Origin: Candidatus Bathyarchaeota archaeon A05DMB-5
GTDB taxonomy: Archaea > Thermoproteota > Bathyarchaeia > Bathyarchaeales > Bathycorpusculaceae
NCBI GenBank assembly: GCA_019685655.1
Contig: JABFQP010000002.1
Coordinates: forward strand, 186,001-250,000
Length of the DNA stretch: 64,000 bases
Direction: 5' to 3'
Shown here one piece after another: positions 6,843-13,333 of this stretch (position 1 is its first letter; every line of letters starts with the position of its first letter). A program made the position numbers and the translations under genes. Under the pieces are notes generated by a model. That model made no database searches, was not told where the DNA came from, and saw nothing but the letters and a program-made list of their open reading frames with translations.

Positions 6843-7319
6843 ATGAAAGTAATGCCCAAGAAAAAGGAATCTGACAAGTCTTCGGATGTTAACATATTTC
6901 AAATTCTTACGGAAACGGCTGAAAAAGAGAAAAAGAAGCGCAGAGAGGAACTTTTGGCTCCGTTGGGCATAAAAGAGTTTTTTGTTGAAGGAAAAATATC
7001 GATTGACAAGCGAACGTGTAAGGGTGTCGAGTGCAAACTCTGCATAAAGGCTTGTCCAACTAATGCTTTGTTTTGGAAAAGTGGCGAAGTTGGGATAACT
7101 GAAGACTTGTGCATTTACTGTGGCTCATGTGTCTTAAACTGTATTGTGGATGATTGCATAAAAATTGTGAGAAGAAGGCAGAATGGACAAACTGAACGTT
7201 TCAGTAAACCGAAAGATTTCGTAACGCTTCAACATGGCATCTGTGCAAGAAAACGTTTTGAAAGAATTAATGATGTTTTTTCAAAACCAGAAACCTGCCT
7301 TGAAAGGTACAAGAAATAA
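6843..7319 (+). CDS. Ferredoxin-like protein with two [4Fe-4S] sites
   Basis: A 158-residue protein with a charged, probably helical N-terminus (1-45), then a bacterial-type ferredoxin fold. Cysteines C59, C64, C67 and C71-Pro form the first cluster with an unusual CX4C opening; C90, C93, C96 and C100 form the second. A basic tail of about 50 residues follows. It is too long for a plain ferredoxin and may be an electron-transfer subunit. Start at ATG 6843; a second Met lies at codon 4. It is the last gene before the mobile-element insertion and would originally have faced the 3' end of the cdh operon. Confidence 0.82.
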   Translation: MKVMPKKKESDKSSDVNIFQILTETAEKEKKKRREELLAPLGIKEFFVEGKISIDKRTCKGVECKLCIKACPTNALFWKSGEVGITEDLCIYCGSCVLNCIVDDCIKIVRRRQNGQTERFSKPKDFVTLQHGICARKRFERINDVFSKPETCLERYKK

Positions 7320-7362: not shown

Positions 7363-7383
7363 GGTACCCCCCTTATATATACT
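7363..7383 (-). promoter_or_regulatory. TATA/G-run motif, copy D (minus strand)
   Basis: On the minus strand this reads AGTATATATAAGGGGGGTACC, matching the other copies in TATAAGGGGGG. It partly overlaps the left target-site copy of the mobile element, so the element inserted next to this motif in what was a convergent intergenic region. Confidence 0.4.
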
Positions 7384-7391
7384 TTGAATTT
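7377..7391. repeat. Target-site duplication, left copy (15 bp)
   Basis: ATATACTTTGAATTT, identical to 11853-11867. The two copies flank the inverted repeats exactly, as expected for a staggered-cut integration. A 14-15 bp duplication is typical of casposase (Cas1) integration. Confidence 0.9.
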
Positions 7392-7411
7392 CCTTCCTTC
7401 CTTCCTTAAAC
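7392..7411. repeat. Terminal inverted repeat, left end
   Basis: Four CCTT units followed by AAAC. The right end (11836-11851) is the reverse complement with three units, so the ends differ by one CCTT, probably from slippage. Confidence 0.85.
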
Positions 7412-7429
7412 TTTAAAAATAGAAAAAGG

Positions 7430-8479
7430 TTAGGGTTGTTGAGTGGTTAGTGGTTTTAAGAGAAAAGGGTTGATAGTGAAGGTGTTGAGGTTTACGATTC
7501 GTGGTTGCCATGCTGATTTTTCATTGCGGATATACTGAGCAAATAAGAAGGCTTCTTCTGAAATTAGAGTTTCAATTTGTTGACGTAAACCATGACGGAA
7601 ACGTTCTATTCTGACATGTTGATGCAGAAACTCATGTAAAGCCTTAACAAATTTTTTGGTTTCAGCTTTGCCTAGAAAAAGCCTAGAACCTTTATTCTGA
7701 TAGTTCAGAGTAAACATCAAGTCTTTATTCTTAATGCAGTATTCAATAACGAAGTAGTCAATGAGATAACGGTAAATCTCCATGAAATCACAGACAAAAC
7801 TAGGCTTTTGAGGTTGAACACTATGCATGAAACCAAGATAAGGCTCAAGCTTAGCTTTAATCACAGCTTGATAAACCTTCCACGACAACACTTCATAAGC
7901 TAAATTAAAGAGGTTGTTGACTCCATCATAAGCATTATAGGTTTGTCTTGATTTAGGCTTAATCTTCTTAGGTAACAAACTGAACAGTCGTTGAAAGTAA
8001 GCCTTACTGTGCATGGCTTCAAAATGCATGACGTTTGTGAGACTGTCTAAGCCTTCGATTTTGTCTAGGTCATCATGAGGTTTAAGGTTTAATTTCTCTA
8101 AGACTTGATTCTGTCCTTCAAACTTAGCTTTAATAATGGTTTTGGCAATTTTAACTCTACGTTCAACATCACGATAAGCTTCATACTGCATAATGCGAGT
8201 TTTAACATGACTGTCGTAATTGAGAGGTTTAAGAACAGCTATGGGCTTGTTGTTTCTGGTCATAACAAGAACATCAACTTCAAAAAAGCCAAGACTAGCC
8301 AAAGCACCAACACTGACAAGACTACCGCTTTTAAGGATAACTTCGCCAATGTCGTTTTCAATAAGCGGATATTTTTCAGTTTTGCCGTTCCTACGCTTAA
8401 CATGAAAACATCCCTTAGTCATACCTAGATAATCACCGTAGTCATCAAGAACAATACTGAAGACCTTAGCTCGAACCAT
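7430..8479 (-). CDS. cas1: Solo Cas1 integrase (casposase)
   Basis: A 349-residue Cas1. The beta-rich N-terminal domain (about 1-85) precedes the helical catalytic domain with the Cas1 residues in place: E154 in MHFEAMHSKAYF, H219 in LEPYLGFMHS and D231/E234 in CDFMEIYRYLID. The stretch before H219 (YDGVNNLFNLAYEVL) is also typical. A C-terminal extension of about 40-50 residues could hold the extra DNA-binding part seen in casposases. I place the start at ATG 8479 because AGGTGA lies five bases upstream; an in-frame GTG at 8488 is part of that ribosome site. It is coupled to the zinc-ribbon gene upstream. No Cas2 or CRISPR is in the window, so the likely substrate is the element's own ends. 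Confidence 0.92.
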   Translation of the reverse strand: MVRAKVFSIVLDDYGDYLGMTKGCFHVKRRNGKTEKYPLIENDIGEVILKSGSLVSVGALASLGFFEVDVLVMTRNNKPIAVLKPLNYDSHVKTRIMQYEAYRDVERRVKIAKTIIKAKFEGQNQVLEKLNLKPHDDLDKIEGLDSLTNVMHFEAMHSKAYFQRLFSLLPKKIKPKSRQTYNAYDGVNNLFNLAYEVLSWKVYQAVIKAKLEPYLGFMHSVQPQKPSFVCDFMEIYRYLIDYFVIEYCIKNKDLMFTLNYQNKGSRLFLGKAETKKFVKALHEFLHQHVRIERFRHGLRQQIETLISEEAFLFAQYIRNEKSAWQPRIVNLNTFTINPFLLKPLTTQQP

Positions 8480-8491
8480 AACCCTCACCTT

Positions 8492-8599
8492 TCAATCGGT
8501 TATTTTGGTTTTGTAACTGCAGTTCGGACAGGTAGCCTGCTTCAGCTTTCCTTTGTAACGCCATTTGTATCCGCACTTTTCACATTTTACTTCTCTCAT
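8492..8599 (-). CDS. Small zinc-ribbon protein upstream of cas1
   Basis: A 35-residue protein starting MREVKCEKCGYKW, with CxxC at 6-9 and CPxC at 24-27: a single zinc ribbon rich in Lys and Arg. It reads into cas1 with only 12 bp between its stop and the cas1 ATG, and the cas1 ribosome site overlaps the junction, so the two are surely one transcript. A role in binding the element ends or helping Cas1 is inference. A TATA-like TATTTAAA lies at 8635-8642, about 36 nt before the start. Confidence 0.75.
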   Translation of the reverse strand: MREVKCEKCGYKWRYKGKLKQATCPNCSYKTKITD

Positions 8600-8634
8600 G
8601 GTTAGATTCCCCGAATAAGTAGTAGTGGTAGTAG

Positions 8635-8642
8635 TTTAAATA
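8635..8642 (-). promoter_or_regulatory. TATA box for the zinc-ribbon/cas1 transcript
   Basis: TATTTAAA on the minus strand, about 36 nt before the zinc-ribbon start. It is the leftward half of a divergent promoter region (8600-8792) that also serves the RHH gene. Confidence 0.5.
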
Positions 8643-8748
8643 GTTTACTGATGACCGTTTTCAGATGTCTGTTTATTCCATAAGTTAACGGTTAAGAGAT
8701 TACTTTAGAAGACCTCTAAAAATTCTAATAAAAAGATTCACCAAAAAG

Positions 8749-8757
8749 TTTATAAAA
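8749..8757 (+). promoter_or_regulatory. TATA box for the RHH gene
   Basis: TTTATAAAA preceded by A-rich CCAAAAAG (BRE-like), 36 nt before the ATG at 8793. GTGAT just upstream of the start serves as ribosome site. The spacing mirrors the divergent minus-strand promoter, so one regulator could control both. Confidence 0.65.
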
Positions 8758-8792
8758 TAGTATAACTATAATTATAGCTTGAGTGATAAAAA

Positions 8793-9314
8793 ATGATTAA
8801 ACCAATAGAATCACAAGCTGAACAATCCGCAATCGATATAGACACACTTGATGATACCCAAATAAAAGTCATCTTTCTAATGAGCAAAGCTACATGGAAA
8901 AGGCTTGGAGAAATAGCCTTAAACCGTGAAACATCAAGAGCCTCTCTAGTGCGTGAAGCAATCCTACAATACATGGAAAAGCTGGAGAAACCCGAAGAGC
9001 AGAATCCGAAAATTCCAGATAGACAACTTAACAGAATCATCAAAGAATGCACTAAGGATGATAATGAAGGATTTGAAATAGACGGAGAAGACGGCTTCAT
9101 AGAGCAAATGAAGGCTAAAGGCTTCAAACTTAAAGACTCAACGCCTGAACAATGGGAAAAAGTCAAAGAAAAACTTGAGATTGGTTATAAAGGCTATTTC
9201 AGTCCGCCAAGCCTAGAAGAGTTTGCTGAAAAATTCGAAGTTTTAGAGCCTTCAGAAGAACAGAAAACATGGCTTTCAACCGCTGAAGAAGAAACAGAAG
9301 AAACTGAAGACTAA
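8793..9314 (+). CDS. Ribbon-helix-helix protein of the mobile element
   Basis: A 173-residue acidic protein. Residues about 24-63 fit a ribbon-helix-helix DNA-binding domain: a short strand IKVIFLMS, then helix TWKRLGEIAL, a turn with SRASL and a second helix VREAILQYMEKL. The C-terminal 110 residues are highly charged (many Glu/Lys) and not recognised. It is divergent from the zinc-ribbon/cas1 pair with a shared 190-bp control region, so it is a natural candidate for a repressor of the element. A T-rich stretch at 9317-9332 after the gene may be a terminator. Confidence 0.7.
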   Translation: MIKPIESQAEQSAIDIDTLDDTQIKVIFLMSKATWKRLGEIALNRETSRASLVREAILQYMEKLEKPEEQNPKIPDRQLNRIIKECTKDDNEGFEIDGEDGFIEQMKAKGFKLKDSTPEQWEKVKEKLEIGYKGYFSPPSLEEFAEKFEVLEPSEEQKTWLSTAEEETEETED

Positions 9315-9345
9315 CCCATTTTCCCTTTTTTTATGGTGAACAAAA

Positions 9346-10296
9346 ATGAACAACCCTTCCCTCATGAACAAACCGAAAACATCTATACACGAACCTCTAG
9401 GTAAAACCATAGTAAACCCCAGCTATAGTGTTAAACCTAAAGGTTCGTATATAGAGAGTTCTCTTGTTGACATTTAACCTCTAATAGACATTGTATCATT
9501 AACCTTACAAACCGCTTTCGTAAGCGACACCATAGACGGATACAGACCAGCAAGTTTGCTCTTAATAGCTAAACCCGAATCTGGAAAAACCACAACCATA
9601 GAGAAATTTCAACCTTTACCCTTTGTCTATTACACAGATGAGATAACCGTTAAAATCTTAGTTGATAGAATTCTCAAAAGAATAGAGTCAAAAGAAATGA
9701 GGTTCATTCTGATTCCAGACATTCTGAACTCAATCAAAAAACAAACATACACTAGAGAGCCTCTCATTCAAACCTTCAAAAGCTTAACAGACGAGGGAGT
9801 ATCTAGAATTGAAACCTTGCATAAAGAATACATCACTAAAACTAAATGTAAAGCTGGTTTAATAACTGCAATAACACGTTCAGAACTATATGCAAGTCAA
9901 GGAAGATATAGTCTCTATGAAGATTTGAAAAGATACGGATTTCTAAGCAGAATGATTCCTTTCAGCTACGAGTATCCCATAGACAAGCTTGACAAAATCT
10001 TCAGTTATATCATGTCTGGAAACAGTGAAGGCAAAAATGTTGTTATCCCAAAAATTCGAATGTTCAAACGAGAAAGACAGTATCAACCAGCTATTGAGTA
10101 TTTTCACAGATTAAGACCAATAAGTGAAAGGCTAAGTCGTTATTCGGACTCTTATGGAATAAGAGTGCAGAAGAACCTTCAGAAATTATGTTATGCTAAC
10201 GCTTTGCTGAACGATAGAAGCTATGTTTCAAAGGAAGATGTTGAAAAGGTTCTCTATCTTGGAAGATGGATGAACTTTGACTTTAATCCGTTATAG
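9346..10296 (+). CDS. AAA+ ATPase frame interrupted by an in-frame TAA
   Basis: One reading frame runs from ATG 9346 (ribosome site GGTGA at 9335-9339) to 10296, but codon 44 is TAA (9475-9477). The first 43 codons give a short, unfamiliar N-terminus. After the stop the frame continues with PLIDIVSLTLQTAF and then a P-loop AKPESGKTT (about codons 75-83), a Walker B-like ILIPD, a sensor-like ITAITRSEL and GFLSRMI, which could contain an arginine finger, followed by a helical C-terminus. This fits an AAA+ protein of the MCM/helicase-like group. The only starts after the TAA (TTG 9556, or a non-standard ATT) leave out conserved-looking sequence before the P-loop. It is therefore a recent nonsense mutation, a recoded gene, or a sequence error. 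Confidence 0.65.
9389..9448. repeat. Inverted repeat (14-bp arms, 32-bp loop)
   Basis: Arms ACGAACCTCTAGGT (9389-9402) and ACCTAAAGGTTCGT (9435-9448) pair at 13 of 14 positions. It lies inside the first 35 codons of the ATPase frame and ends 26 bp before the in-frame TAA. It could be an RNA hairpin, a protein-binding site or an origin/recombination site of the element. Confidence 0.7.
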
Positions 10297-10308
10297 AAGG
10301 TGTTTTTA

Positions 10309-10698
10309 ATGAGCATCAGAACTATTGGCGAAAATGTTCTGTTGCAGAGAGAGTTAGACAATGAAGAACAGTATAGGCGAAGGAATCTTTACGCTCAAGT
10401 TACGGTTAATGATTGTTCATGTTTCAAGTTTTGGGTTAATCCCTACGGCTATTTCTGTCATAGAGACCTTCATATGCATTTGAATCATGGAATAGACAGT
10501 GTTGAGAAAGCTGTGGTTTTTCTTAATCATGAAAGCATCCATATTGTTCTGCGTAAAATTGCTGGTAAAGAAGTTTCTAAGAAATTTGATAGGCTGTTCA
10601 GAAGCGAACGTGATGTTGACGAGTTCGGATTGCCTAAAGAAGAAGGTTTGAAAGTGGTGGTTTTTCATGGTGAAGAAATTGAAGATTTATGGTACTAG
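10309..10698 (+). CDS. Small HEXXH (zincin-like) protein
   Basis: A 129-residue protein with HESIH at 74-78 in a predicted helix (VVFLNHESIHIVL), the active-site pattern of zinc peptidases. A third zinc ligand is not certain. Cys36, Cys38 and Cys50 are N-terminal to it. I start at ATG 10309 because AAGGTG lies just upstream; the in-frame GTG at 10300 belongs to that site. It follows the ATPase frame by 12 bp and overlaps the next gene by 32 bp, so it belongs to the element's rightward operon. Function unknown; it may act on a host or element protein. Confidence 0.65.
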   Translation: MSIRTIGENVLLQRELDNEEQYRRRNLYAQVTVNDCSCFKFWVNPYGYFCHRDLHMHLNHGIDSVEKAVVFLNHESIHIVLRKIAGKEVSKKFDRLFRSERDVDEFGLPKEEGLKVVVFHGEEIEDLWY

Positions 10699-10942
10699 AC
10701 GTAGAGGTCATCGTGAACGTTGGGTTGTTAAGGGTAAAGGTTGCTATAGGGAAGTGCGGAGGGATTCTAAGGGAAGGTTTGTTTCGGTTAAGCGGTGGAA
10801 TCCTAAGAAGCCTATTGGTAAAGAAGTGTTTACTGAGCTTCAGCCTTTGATTGTTGATTATGAAACGGGAAAGGAAGCTTTAGAGAAGGTGAGGGAAGCT
10901 GTTAGGGAGTGGAAGTGGATTGATTTTGAAGCTGAAAGCTGA
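10667..10942 (+). CDS. Small basic protein of the mobile element
   Basis: A 91-residue protein, very basic in its first half (KKLKIYGTRRRGHRER, RRDSKGRFVSVKRW) and helical in its second half. The basic first half suggests nucleic-acid binding, and RDSKGRFVS resembles a segment seen in some mobile-element and phage proteins, but I do not recognise a family. It overlaps the genes on both sides (32 bp upstream, 23 bp downstream), which supports real translation. The coding strand is G/T-rich. Confidence 0.55.
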   Translation: MVKKLKIYGTRRRGHRERWVVKGKGCYREVRRDSKGRFVSVKRWNPKKPIGKEVFTELQPLIVDYETGKEALEKVREAVREWKWIDFEAES

Positions 10943-11351
10943 ACAGAGAACTGAGCATGAATGGGTTTCCGAAGGCTACGTTATTGGGTTTATGACTAAC
11001 AGAGGTTTAATTCTGGATTTGGATAACATGAAGTTTAAGAAGGCTCGATGGCTTGCTCGGAAACTTTGTAAACAATATAGGTTAGAGGGATACTTGTTAA
11101 TTAAGTCAAGTCACAAAAATTACCATGTAGTTTTCAATCGTTATTTAACATGGAAGACAATAACGAAAATATTGTTCAATCAGTATGAAGCTTTGAGGTG
11201 GGCTGTTTTCCAAATGCAAAGCGGATATTTAACCTTACGGATAAGTCGAAAGAATGGAAAGAACAAGCCTAGAATACTATTGAAAGTTGGAAAGACTGAC
11301 AAGTTAATTAACGACTATTTAGAAGTTTACAATGCGTTCAAAGGCTTCTAA
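10920..11351 (+). CDS. Possible minimal archaeo-eukaryotic primase-like protein
   Basis: A 143-residue protein that overlaps the 3' end of the previous gene. Residues 30-35 (LILDLD) look like the hDhD metal motif I of AEP primases and residues 60-71 (LIKSSHKNYHVV) like motif II, where Ser and His precede a strand. A basic LRISRKNGKNKP segment (106-117) follows; motif III is not obvious. If correct, it would supply priming or replication in an element without a polymerase. It could instead be a nuclease or an unrelated replication protein. The TTG start at 10920 is uncertain. Confidence 0.45.
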   Translation: MILKLKAEQRTEHEWVSEGYVIGFMTNRGLILDLDNMKFKKARWLARKLCKQYRLEGYLLIKSSHKNYHVVFNRYLTWKTITKILFNQYEALRWAVFQMQSGYLTLRISRKNGKNKPRILLKVGKTDKLINDYLEVYNAFKGF

Positions 11352-11517
11352 GTTAACTTGATTTACTATTGAACAAAAAAATTACACGTGTTTCCCATTG
11401 AATTTCCCAATAAACTAGAAACTATTTTGTTTGATTCCTTACTTGTTTCTTAACTCTTTACCTAGATTCAATTAACTATAAACCATAAAAAACTTTTCAT
11501 AAGACCATTATTTTTGT

Positions 11518-11793
11518 TCAAGCTTGCTTTTCGTTTCTTTTAACATATACTTCTTCTACATATTTTCCAATCTCATATCCACTAACAAAACCAAAAGCCA
11601 TAATTCCTAGCATAGCGATAATCAAACCTTTTAAACCTTCAGACGTTATAATGAACTGTTCTCCACCCAAAGAAATTCCAGAAATATAACCATACACAAA
11701 AATAATTACTCCAACATCAAAAAACAACAATATTAATCCGAAGATAAGACTTTTCAAGCTTGCTTTTCTACCGAAAGCATACATACCCATCAC
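11518..11793 (-). CDS. Small two-helix membrane protein of the mobile element
   Basis: A 91-residue protein with two hydrophobic segments (about 13-36 and 50-72) joined by a polar loop and ending in a charged helix (GKYVEEVYVKRNEKQ). It sits alone near the right end of the element, pointing left toward the convergent rightward operon. No family recognised. The 166 bp before it (11352-11517) hold no gene that I can see. Confidence 0.6.
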   Translation of the reverse strand: MMGMYAFGRKASLKSLIFGLILLFFDVGVIIFVYGYISGISLGGEQFIITSEGLKGLIIAMLGIMAFGFVSGYEIGKYVEEVYVKRNEKQA

Positions 11794-11835
11794 TTCCTAA
11801 ACCACTGTTTTCTCGCTCATTTTTTAAGGGTTTTG

Positions 11836-11852
11836 GTTTAAGGAAGGAAGGA
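11836..11852. repeat. Terminal inverted repeat, right end
   Basis: GTTTAAGGAAGGAAGGA, the reverse complement of the left end (AAAC preceded by CCTT repeats) with three tetranucleotide units instead of four. Confidence 0.85.
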
Positions 11853-11867
11853 ATATACTTTGAATTT
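11853..11867. repeat. Target-site duplication, right copy (15 bp)
   Basis: ATATACTTTGAATTT, identical to 7377-7391. It lies 26 bp beyond the cdhE stop codon, so the insertion landed just 3' of the cdh operon. Confidence 0.9.
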
Positions 11868-11893: not shown

Positions 11894-13333
11894 TTAGGCT
11901 TGCGTTTGCCATTTTTCTTGTAGGAATTTTGGTATGTCTGATGAATCCCGTGGTCCGACTAGAACTTGCCATCCGCTGAGTTCTTCAATTTCGCCGCTGA
12001 GACGTGCCGCTTTTCCAGGGATTATGAGTTTTCTGTGTTTAACTTTGCTTTCTACTCCAGACGCCTTAATGGCATCAGCAACTTTCTCTGCTGTAAGTTT
12101 TCTCCCAGCTACTGCGCTGTCTACGGCTATGCCCTCAGTGTCAACAACCAGCAGGTACGCGTTTACTTTCGCATTTTCAATGTCGGAAGCTACTGTGTAA
12201 TATGTCAAAGCAAAGTTAGTAGTAAACATCACAGGCGAATTCTCATCTGGAGTCCCGAAAATCTTCAAGCCGGGTTCAACAGCAACTGGCTTGCGTGGGT
12301 CTGTGTAAATGTTCTGCCGCAACACGACTGGTGGAAGAAGCGACCAGCCATCAACACTATGCATTATCACAACGTCAGCAAAGCGAGTAATAAGCAACCC
12401 AGCCAAATACGCTTCTCGCCACTTCGCAATTTCTTCTGGTGCTTCACCACGGTCAACCCAAGCAGTCATAGGTACGCCTATCAAAGGAAAACCAAAAAGT
12501 TCATCGCCCCGCTTGCAAGCAGCTCTGCGAATCATTGTAAAATTGTTAAGCGTGTCAGCCAGTCCATCGCTTGGGAAAGTGCCTGGGTCCAATACTATGT
12601 CTTCGGCACCATACTCGAGTAAAGTCTTCGCCAAAGACCGCAGTAGCTTCAAATTGTTAGGCGCAAAAACCGTCAACGAACAATTATACATTAATGCAAG
12701 CTCAGCCATGTCCTTCCAGTTTTCCTTCGTTGCCGCATACAAAAGCGGACGCGCCTTTGGCGCTGCCATTAATCCAGCTTCCAGAACATTCGGGTTCAAA
12801 GAGCATAGAATCAGTGGCAAACGAGTGTTTTCAACAACTTTCTTAACTGTTACCTTGAATTTTTCTGGGTCATTTGATGTGGAGCGAATGGCAATCATGT
12901 CAAGCTTTAACGTTTGTCCAATGTATTCGAAATTGAACTGTTCAGTCCGCTTTATCCGGTTCATTATTTCTTCGTCAGACATTTCGTCAGTGACGTCAAT
13001 CGCAATGGCAGTGGGGTTGAAATATGCGAACTCGTGGCGGTACATTACGAGTTTCCCGCCAATCTTCACTGCTTTATCGCCAACGCCAATAACAATCTCT
13101 TTTATGGCTGGCTTCAGCATTTCCTTCAATTGCTTGTAAGCTTTCTCATGCTCCTTAGTCAATAAGGGAGGACACTTCTCAATTGCGACTTCACGGTTAA
13201 CAACTTTCGTCGCAAAAGCCATACAGTTCTCTTCGCCACATTCCTTACAGTTAGTTTTGGGAAGAAGCTTGTAAACATCAATGGGGCTTAGTTCTTTTAC
13301 GCCAACTTTTCCCTTTCCTTCCTTCTCATCCAT
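11894..13333 (-). CDS. cdhE: CODH/ACS corrinoid iron-sulfur protein, gamma subunit
   Basis: About 479 residues. The N-terminal [4Fe-4S] motif of the large corrinoid protein subunit is complete (CKECGEENC, then a fourth Cys 17 residues later in AIEKCPPLL). A TIM barrel follows, and the C-terminal part binds the cobamide. With CdhD it carries the methyl group from tetrahydropterin to the acetyl-CoA synthase. It is the last gene of cdhABCDE. ATG 13333 is preferred over an in-frame GTG at 13339 because GGAG sits nine bases before the ATG. Confidence 0.95.
   Translation of the reverse strand: MDEKEGKGKVGVKELSPIDVYKLLPKTNCKECGEENCMAFATKVVNREVAIEKCPPLLTKEHEKAYKQLKEMLKPAIKEIVIGVGDKAVKIGGKLVMYRHEFAYFNPTAIAIDVTDEMSDEEIMNRIKRTEQFNFEYIGQTLKLDMIAIRSTSNDPEKFKVTVKKVVENTRLPLILCSLNPNVLEAGLMAAPKARPLLYAATKENWKDMAELALMYNCSLTVFAPNNLKLLRSLAKTLLEYGAEDIVLDPGTFPSDGLADTLNNFTMIRRAACKRGDELFGFPLIGVPMTAWVDRGEAPEEIAKWREAYLAGLLITRFADVVIMHSVDGWSLLPPVVLRQNIYTDPRKPVAVEPGLKIFGTPDENSPVMFTTNFALTYYTVASDIENAKVNAYLLVVDTEGIAVDSAVAGRKLTAEKVADAIKASGVESKVKHRKLIIPGKAARLSGEIEELSGWQVLVGPRDSSDIPKFLQEKWQTQA

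Follow-up and report, generated by a model that had tools for sequence, protein, structure and literature searches.

A compact casposon-like transposon with a solo Cas1 in a Bathyarchaeia genome and its PolB-less relatives

Cas1 is the type of enzyme by which CRISPR systems store virus DNA, and CRISPR adaptation is proposed to have arisen from casposons. Almost all of the described casposon families carry a family B DNA polymerase (PolB). The first-pass annotation of the DNA studied here treated its lineage as one without known casposons, and our literature search likewise found no paper linking casposons with Bathyarchaeia; one paper on casposons named Bathyarchaeota, but only in passing. Casposon families 1-4 (Krupovic et al. 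2014, PMC4046053), which include the casposases of M. mazei and A. boonei, combine a solo Cas1 with a full active site, terminal inverted repeats (TIRs), target site duplications (TSDs) of 14-15 bp, the possibility of several copies per genome and a varied DNA-handling cargo (methylases, restriction enzymes, ribbon-helix-helix proteins, zinc ribbons), all of which are shared with the group described below. In 2022 a further casposase family without PolB, family 5, was put forward on the basis of hot-spring metagenomes (PMC9755687).

We analyzed a window of 64,000 nucleotides (G000:C2:186001-250000) from a genome of 98.6% completeness; among named genomes, Candidatus Bathyarchaeota MAGs are the nearest to it. 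A mobile element of 4,461 bp with a solo Cas1 aboard occupies positions 7392-11852. It is flanked by a ferredoxin-like gene (6843-7319) and by the CODH/ACS operon next to which it had first been placed; the operon's gamma subunit gene ends at 11894. The features are as follows.

7377..7391, + strand: left TSD ATATACTTTGAATTT, single copy in the G001 empty site
7392..7411, + strand: left TIR, (CCTT)4AAAC
7430..8488, - strand: solo Cas1 of 352 aa with a GTG start, putatively the transposase (PF01867, E=1.8e-47)
8492..8599, - strand: zinc-ribbon protein, 35 aa (weak zinc-ribbon matches)
8793..9314, + strand: ribbon-helix-helix (CopG-like) DNA-binding protein (RHH_1 weak, E=0.02; CopG-like PHROG, E=0.0023)
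9346..10296, + strand: gene for an AAA+ ATPase/helicase-like protein, Walker A motif present (4 other elements have homologues)
10300..10698, + strand: element ORF, no recognised family
10667..10942, + strand: small basic element ORF, no recognised family
10920..11351, + strand: AEP-like (primase-like) protein of 143 aa bearing DxD and R motifs (6 other elements have homologues)
11518..11793, - strand: small predicted membrane protein (hydrophobic by inspection; no family match)
11836..11853, - strand: right TIR, exact complement of 7394-7411
11853..11867, + strand: right TSD ATATACTTTGAATTT, one base in common with the TIR

The inverted ends (7394-7411 and 11836-11853) were identical at 18 of 18 positions, and the direct repeat outside the element (7377-7391 and 11853-11867) at 15 of 15, in agreement with the 4.46-kb segment with inverted ends and a perfect 15-bp repeat described initially. 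A TIR and TSD finder applied to 38 control anchors elsewhere in the window returned no matches. The genes flanking the element stand 111 nt apart in G001, a genome of the same genus (proteins 91% and 97% identical), and the window flanks joined with one target copy aligned cleanly to this empty site. Chance repeats as the source of the TIRs and TSD are ruled out by the 0 of 38 control matches together with the empty sites, the G001 site holding a single target copy. The source genome also contained a second, divergent copy of the element on contig C5 (Cas1 51% identical) at a site that is empty in G001, while the site corresponding to G001's own element was empty in the source genome. The empty sites are reciprocal: each of the three insertions is present in only one of these two congeneric genomes. 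The search for an empty site and further copies that the first-pass annotation had proposed thus yielded both, and its casposon-like interpretation of the segment is supported, none of the three results that it had named as refuting having been obtained. The 4.5-kb segment is a real transposon, probably moved by its Cas1.

Both ends of every bounded element consisted of short tandem, telomere-like repeats, with the outermost 18 bases nearly always lacking G. The repeat unit (CCTT, CCT, CCCAAA, CCCAA, CCAA or CT) varied among elements and was matched within each, and the periodicity of 17 of the 22 ends exceeded that of 99% of 18-mers drawn at random from the locus concerned. Nine of the ten occurrences of CCCAAACCCAAACCC in 12 genomes were at the ends of Cas1 elements. 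An isolated CCCAAACCCAAACCC end was observed at G015:C100:15822-15836, on a contig where the search gave no Cas1 match, and is possibly a Cas1-less relative or an element split between contigs. GG runs are lacking in the (CT)n ends, so G-quadruplex ends as a common rule were unsupported. The TIRs were non-repetitive in three thaumarchaeal casposon-like loci, each of which encodes PolB-motif ORFs, and in two of the three they begin 5' GGGG (3' CCCC). This is the opposite C/G polarity to that of the Bathyarchaeia ends and agrees with the TCCCC 3' end of the A. boonei casposon (PMC6614799). The TSDs were 13-15 bp in the relatives and 15 bp in the window element, matching the 14-15 bp made by casposases (PMC6614799). 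Targets were AT-rich and mostly intergenic, often of the form xTTAAAxTTTxAT, with a palindrome that was marginal only (p=0.048). The targets at 7365-7391 in the window and at L003:5525-5543 in the same genome resembled each other (CCCCCCTTATATATA..TTGAAT); each is located between two convergent genes and may represent a terminator-like target.

The window Cas1 matched PF01867 over residues 13-285, and its full active-site set (E157, H222, D234, E237) was invariant across eight relatives; these are the catalytic E154, H219, D231 and E234 of the first-pass annotation, where the count began at an internal ATG. A profile scan of all 352 residues gave no helix-turn-helix (HTH) match, the Cas1 match stopping at 285. 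The comparison of G024 with G029 (dN 0.18, dS 2.5) indicated purifying selection on Cas1. Fifteen solo Cas1s, including that of the window element, formed one clade in our tree (support 100/100), apart from 18 CRISPR Cas1s including that of the sister genome, and adjoining the casposases at 90/68; the tree also included the solo Cas1 of G088 (L082/L147), an ungrouped long branch. The tree placement proposed as a check on the original interpretation thus put the protein outside the CRISPR clades, with the casposases as neighbours at that support and a grouping with I-A-like CRISPR Cas1 not rejected (p-AU 0.22).

This last topology bears on whether the same element could have acquired its Cas1 in a second recruitment from a CRISPR I-A-like Cas1 instead of by descent from classical casposases, in which case it would have become a Cas1 transposon in parallel with the casposons, without being descended from them. 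We regard this as a possible but rather unlikely origin. The best tree, which joins the clade to the casposases, argues against it, as does the single-sequence PDB search with the window Cas1, in which the best match was the M. mazei casposase 6OPM (E=6.7e-21). The family-profile PDB search pointed the other way, placing the Archaeoglobus CRISPR Cas1 4n06 at the top (E=3.5e-35) and the casposase behind it (E=1.2e-27). The polarity and repetitiveness of the ends, unlike those of thaumarchaeal casposons, are also consistent with a second recruitment, as is the placement of the family 5 Cas1 likewise beside I-A in the available text of its report (PMC9755687). On the tree support of 90/68, placement of the clade beside the casposases is favoured, with the I-A grouping not rejected.

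Long matches belonging to the clade were observed in 7 of 41 genomes searched with the window Cas1. A collection of 84,980 species genomes contained 24 matching loci, nearly all from Bathyarchaeota; one small 'Levybacteria' contig is apparently mis-binned, and a few distant Thermoproteota matches (26-31%) fell outside the Cas1 clade. At least 11 elements (about a dozen) could be bounded in Bathyarchaeia, ranging from 3.9 to 12.6 kb: the window element (4.46 kb), L003 (5.4 kb), L036 (3.9 kb), L037/L051 (4.2 kb), L039/L060 (4.1 kb), L040 (6.2 kb), L050 (5.2 kb), L053 (12.6 kb), L054 (6.2 kb), L056 (7.6 kb) and L038/L052 (7.5 kb, possibly composite). L038:5745-13243 (G012) had two right-type ends (10746 and 13217) with differing targets, perhaps from nested insertions. 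Degenerate fragments of clade Cas1 were observed at five places (L041-L044) in the single-contig 2.15-Mb genome G036, as if the element had spread there and then died.

Cas1 was the only gene common to all elements. The AEP-like protein was observed in seven elements (the majority) and the AAA+ protein in five (about half). An AEP identity for the small DxD/R protein is plausible from its motifs: D33, D35 and R107 were invariant in the cluster of seven, and matches to PF24387 were sub-threshold (E=0.0099 for the window copy; 0.00026 and 0.0016 for relatives), while its structure model was poor (pLDDT 60) and fold searches gave no reliable match. The window AAA+ gene has an in-frame TAA (9475-9477) at the position of a Glu conserved in relatives, and this copy is therefore probably broken or read only from a downstream start (uninterrupted part 9478-10296). 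By inspection, a CxxC motif similar to that of the 35-aa zinc-ribbon protein lies at the N-terminal end of the L056-element methylase. The cargo of larger elements also included a DNA methylase paired with a restriction enzyme of the Mrr or ThaI type, as at L056:6462-8141 (ThaI-type enzyme, E=4.5e-90, plus methylase). Two elements without the AEP/AAA+ pair contained beta-rich proteins of 181-208 aa that are 44% identical (L036:10834-11379 and L039:1193-1819), for which family and fold searches gave no reliable match (G001/G024 model poor, pLDDT 57); a capsid role is conceivable. The absence of PolB noted in the first-pass annotation held for all elements inspected, since the longest ORF in the bounded elements (~360 aa) is too short for this polymerase. 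No HNH match was found among the element proteins scanned.

Two IMG/VR contigs (L073:8859-11026 and L074), identical over the 12.4 kb compared, contained tailed-virus genes including tail genes, a target-like TAAATTTTAAT, then CCAACCAACC, and then a clade Cas1 with a ParB-like gene. The candidate element end stands between the virus genes and Cas1, with the right end beyond the contig, and the element was apparently inserted in a virus or provirus. Another target-like site, with (GCT)4, was observed at 9292. A search of IMG/VR for euryarchaeal casposases with an M. mazei fragment found nothing.

The segment might instead be the decaying remains of an integrated plasmid or virus, with Cas1 as a mere passenger and another integrase responsible for the insertion, a reading we consider improbable. 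The strongly different cargo among elements, the broken AAA+ gene, the beta-rich protein common to some elements and the related Cas1 on tailed-virus contigs would all suit such a remnant, but the sole gene shared by every element is Cas1, and on the virus contigs the candidate end parts the virus genes from it. Furthermore, no recombinase or transposase family matched among the scanned ORFs, a scan that omitted the small ORFs of several elements.

Inverted CRISPR arrays give false positives with the TIR and TSD finder. The G088 solo Cas1 (L082/L147) was dropped as a further casposon for this reason: in L147 (5253-12716) it is flanked by two inverted arrays (repeat CTTTCAATTCTATCTAACAGATTC) that mimic TIRs and a TSD. 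That the window segment is itself the adaptation remnant of a CRISPR-Cas locus with repeats by chance, as membership of the Cas1 family and the G088 case might suggest, is highly improbable and refuted by the empty sites, with further evidence against it from the control anchors, a scan that found no CRISPR-like array in the window, and a host CRISPR locus with its own Cas1 located elsewhere. The genome's only cas2 is on contig C8 beside the host CRISPR-Cas genes and a different Cas1, a fragment cut off by the contig end, which bears out the earlier statement that Cas2 and CRISPR are absent nearby.

We therefore prefer, with a probability of roughly 0.88, the reading of the segment as a casposon-like transposon of a Bathyarchaeia-specific group, with the solo Cas1 most likely acting as transposase through tandem-repeat ends and a staggered attack on the target. 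The ends, the duplications, clean insertion at three sites that are empty in the sister genome, and an active site under purifying selection were observed directly. Cas1 would bind the tandem-repeat ends and direct the 3'-OH of their G-rich strands against an AT-rich intergenic target. The two target strands would be attacked ~14 bp apart, and filling of the gaps by host repair would give the 13-15-bp duplication. The joining would be performed by Cas1 itself. Replication of a putative excised form may rely on the AEP-like protein and the AAA+ ATPase, together with host polymerases, in place of PolB. The window copy, its AAA+ gene interrupted by a stop, may need the genome's second copy.

Such a PolB-less, widespread and recently mobile group in Bathyarchaeia suggests that Cas1 transposition needs no self-encoded replicative polymerase. 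With their simple ends, the small elements (3.9-4.5 kb) lend themselves well to the study of Cas1 action without Cas2 and of its choice of DNA ends. That the ends are matched yet change among elements raises a new question of how casposon ends arise. One speculation, which we hold only tentatively and think unlikely as a whole, is that a copying process, for example by the element's primase-like protein or through slippage at the termini, generated or homogenised the telomere-like matched ends, that Cas1 reads the repeat phase or a G-rich 3' structure and not a fixed sequence, and that CRISPR integrase and transposase were interconverted a second time, independently, in this Cas1. The placement of the Cas1 clade bears directly on the direction of CRISPR-transposon evolution, and the group thereby on the origin of CRISPR memory.

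Compared with the original description of casposons, the window element has no tie between its Cas1 and CRISPR or cas2, and has the catalytic residues, TIRs, a TSD of ~14-15 bp and mobility (an empty site and several locations), but not the self-encoded PolB. Since PolB was the exception among the element-level features tested, we file it as a variant of the casposon kind, which behaves like a casposon but is not self-synthesizing in the sense originally meant. Unlike families 1-4, the Bathyarchaeia group was without PolB and without an HNH match, and no C-terminal HTH was found on its Cas1; neither the C-terminal HTH nor the HNH nuclease that mark family 2 gave a match among the element proteins scanned. 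The Bathyarchaeia TIRs are short tandem repeats with a 5' C-strand (3' G), whereas those of families 1-4 are unique sequence; the elements are usually smaller (3.9-7.6 kb), and their targets are intergenic and AT-rich rather than the ends of tRNA or EF-2 genes. The CRISPR Cas1 of the same hosts (G001:C2) shares the Cas1 fold and active site but is only ~33% identical to the window Cas1, adjoins cas2 and belongs to a separate clade. The suggestion of a new or minimal family carries a caveat, since family 5 may be the same clade. As described in the available text (PMC9755687), family 5 has an archaeal-like solo Cas1 near I-A with no HTH and the catalytic residues kept, mostly no DNA polymerase, a variable hypothetical cargo and TIRs in some contigs, all like our group; the same text names no Bathyarchaeia and gives no TSD, empty site or tandem-repeat ends. 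Compared by description only, the Bathyarchaeia clade may be family 5 with a host, TSDs, empty sites and an end structure now attached.
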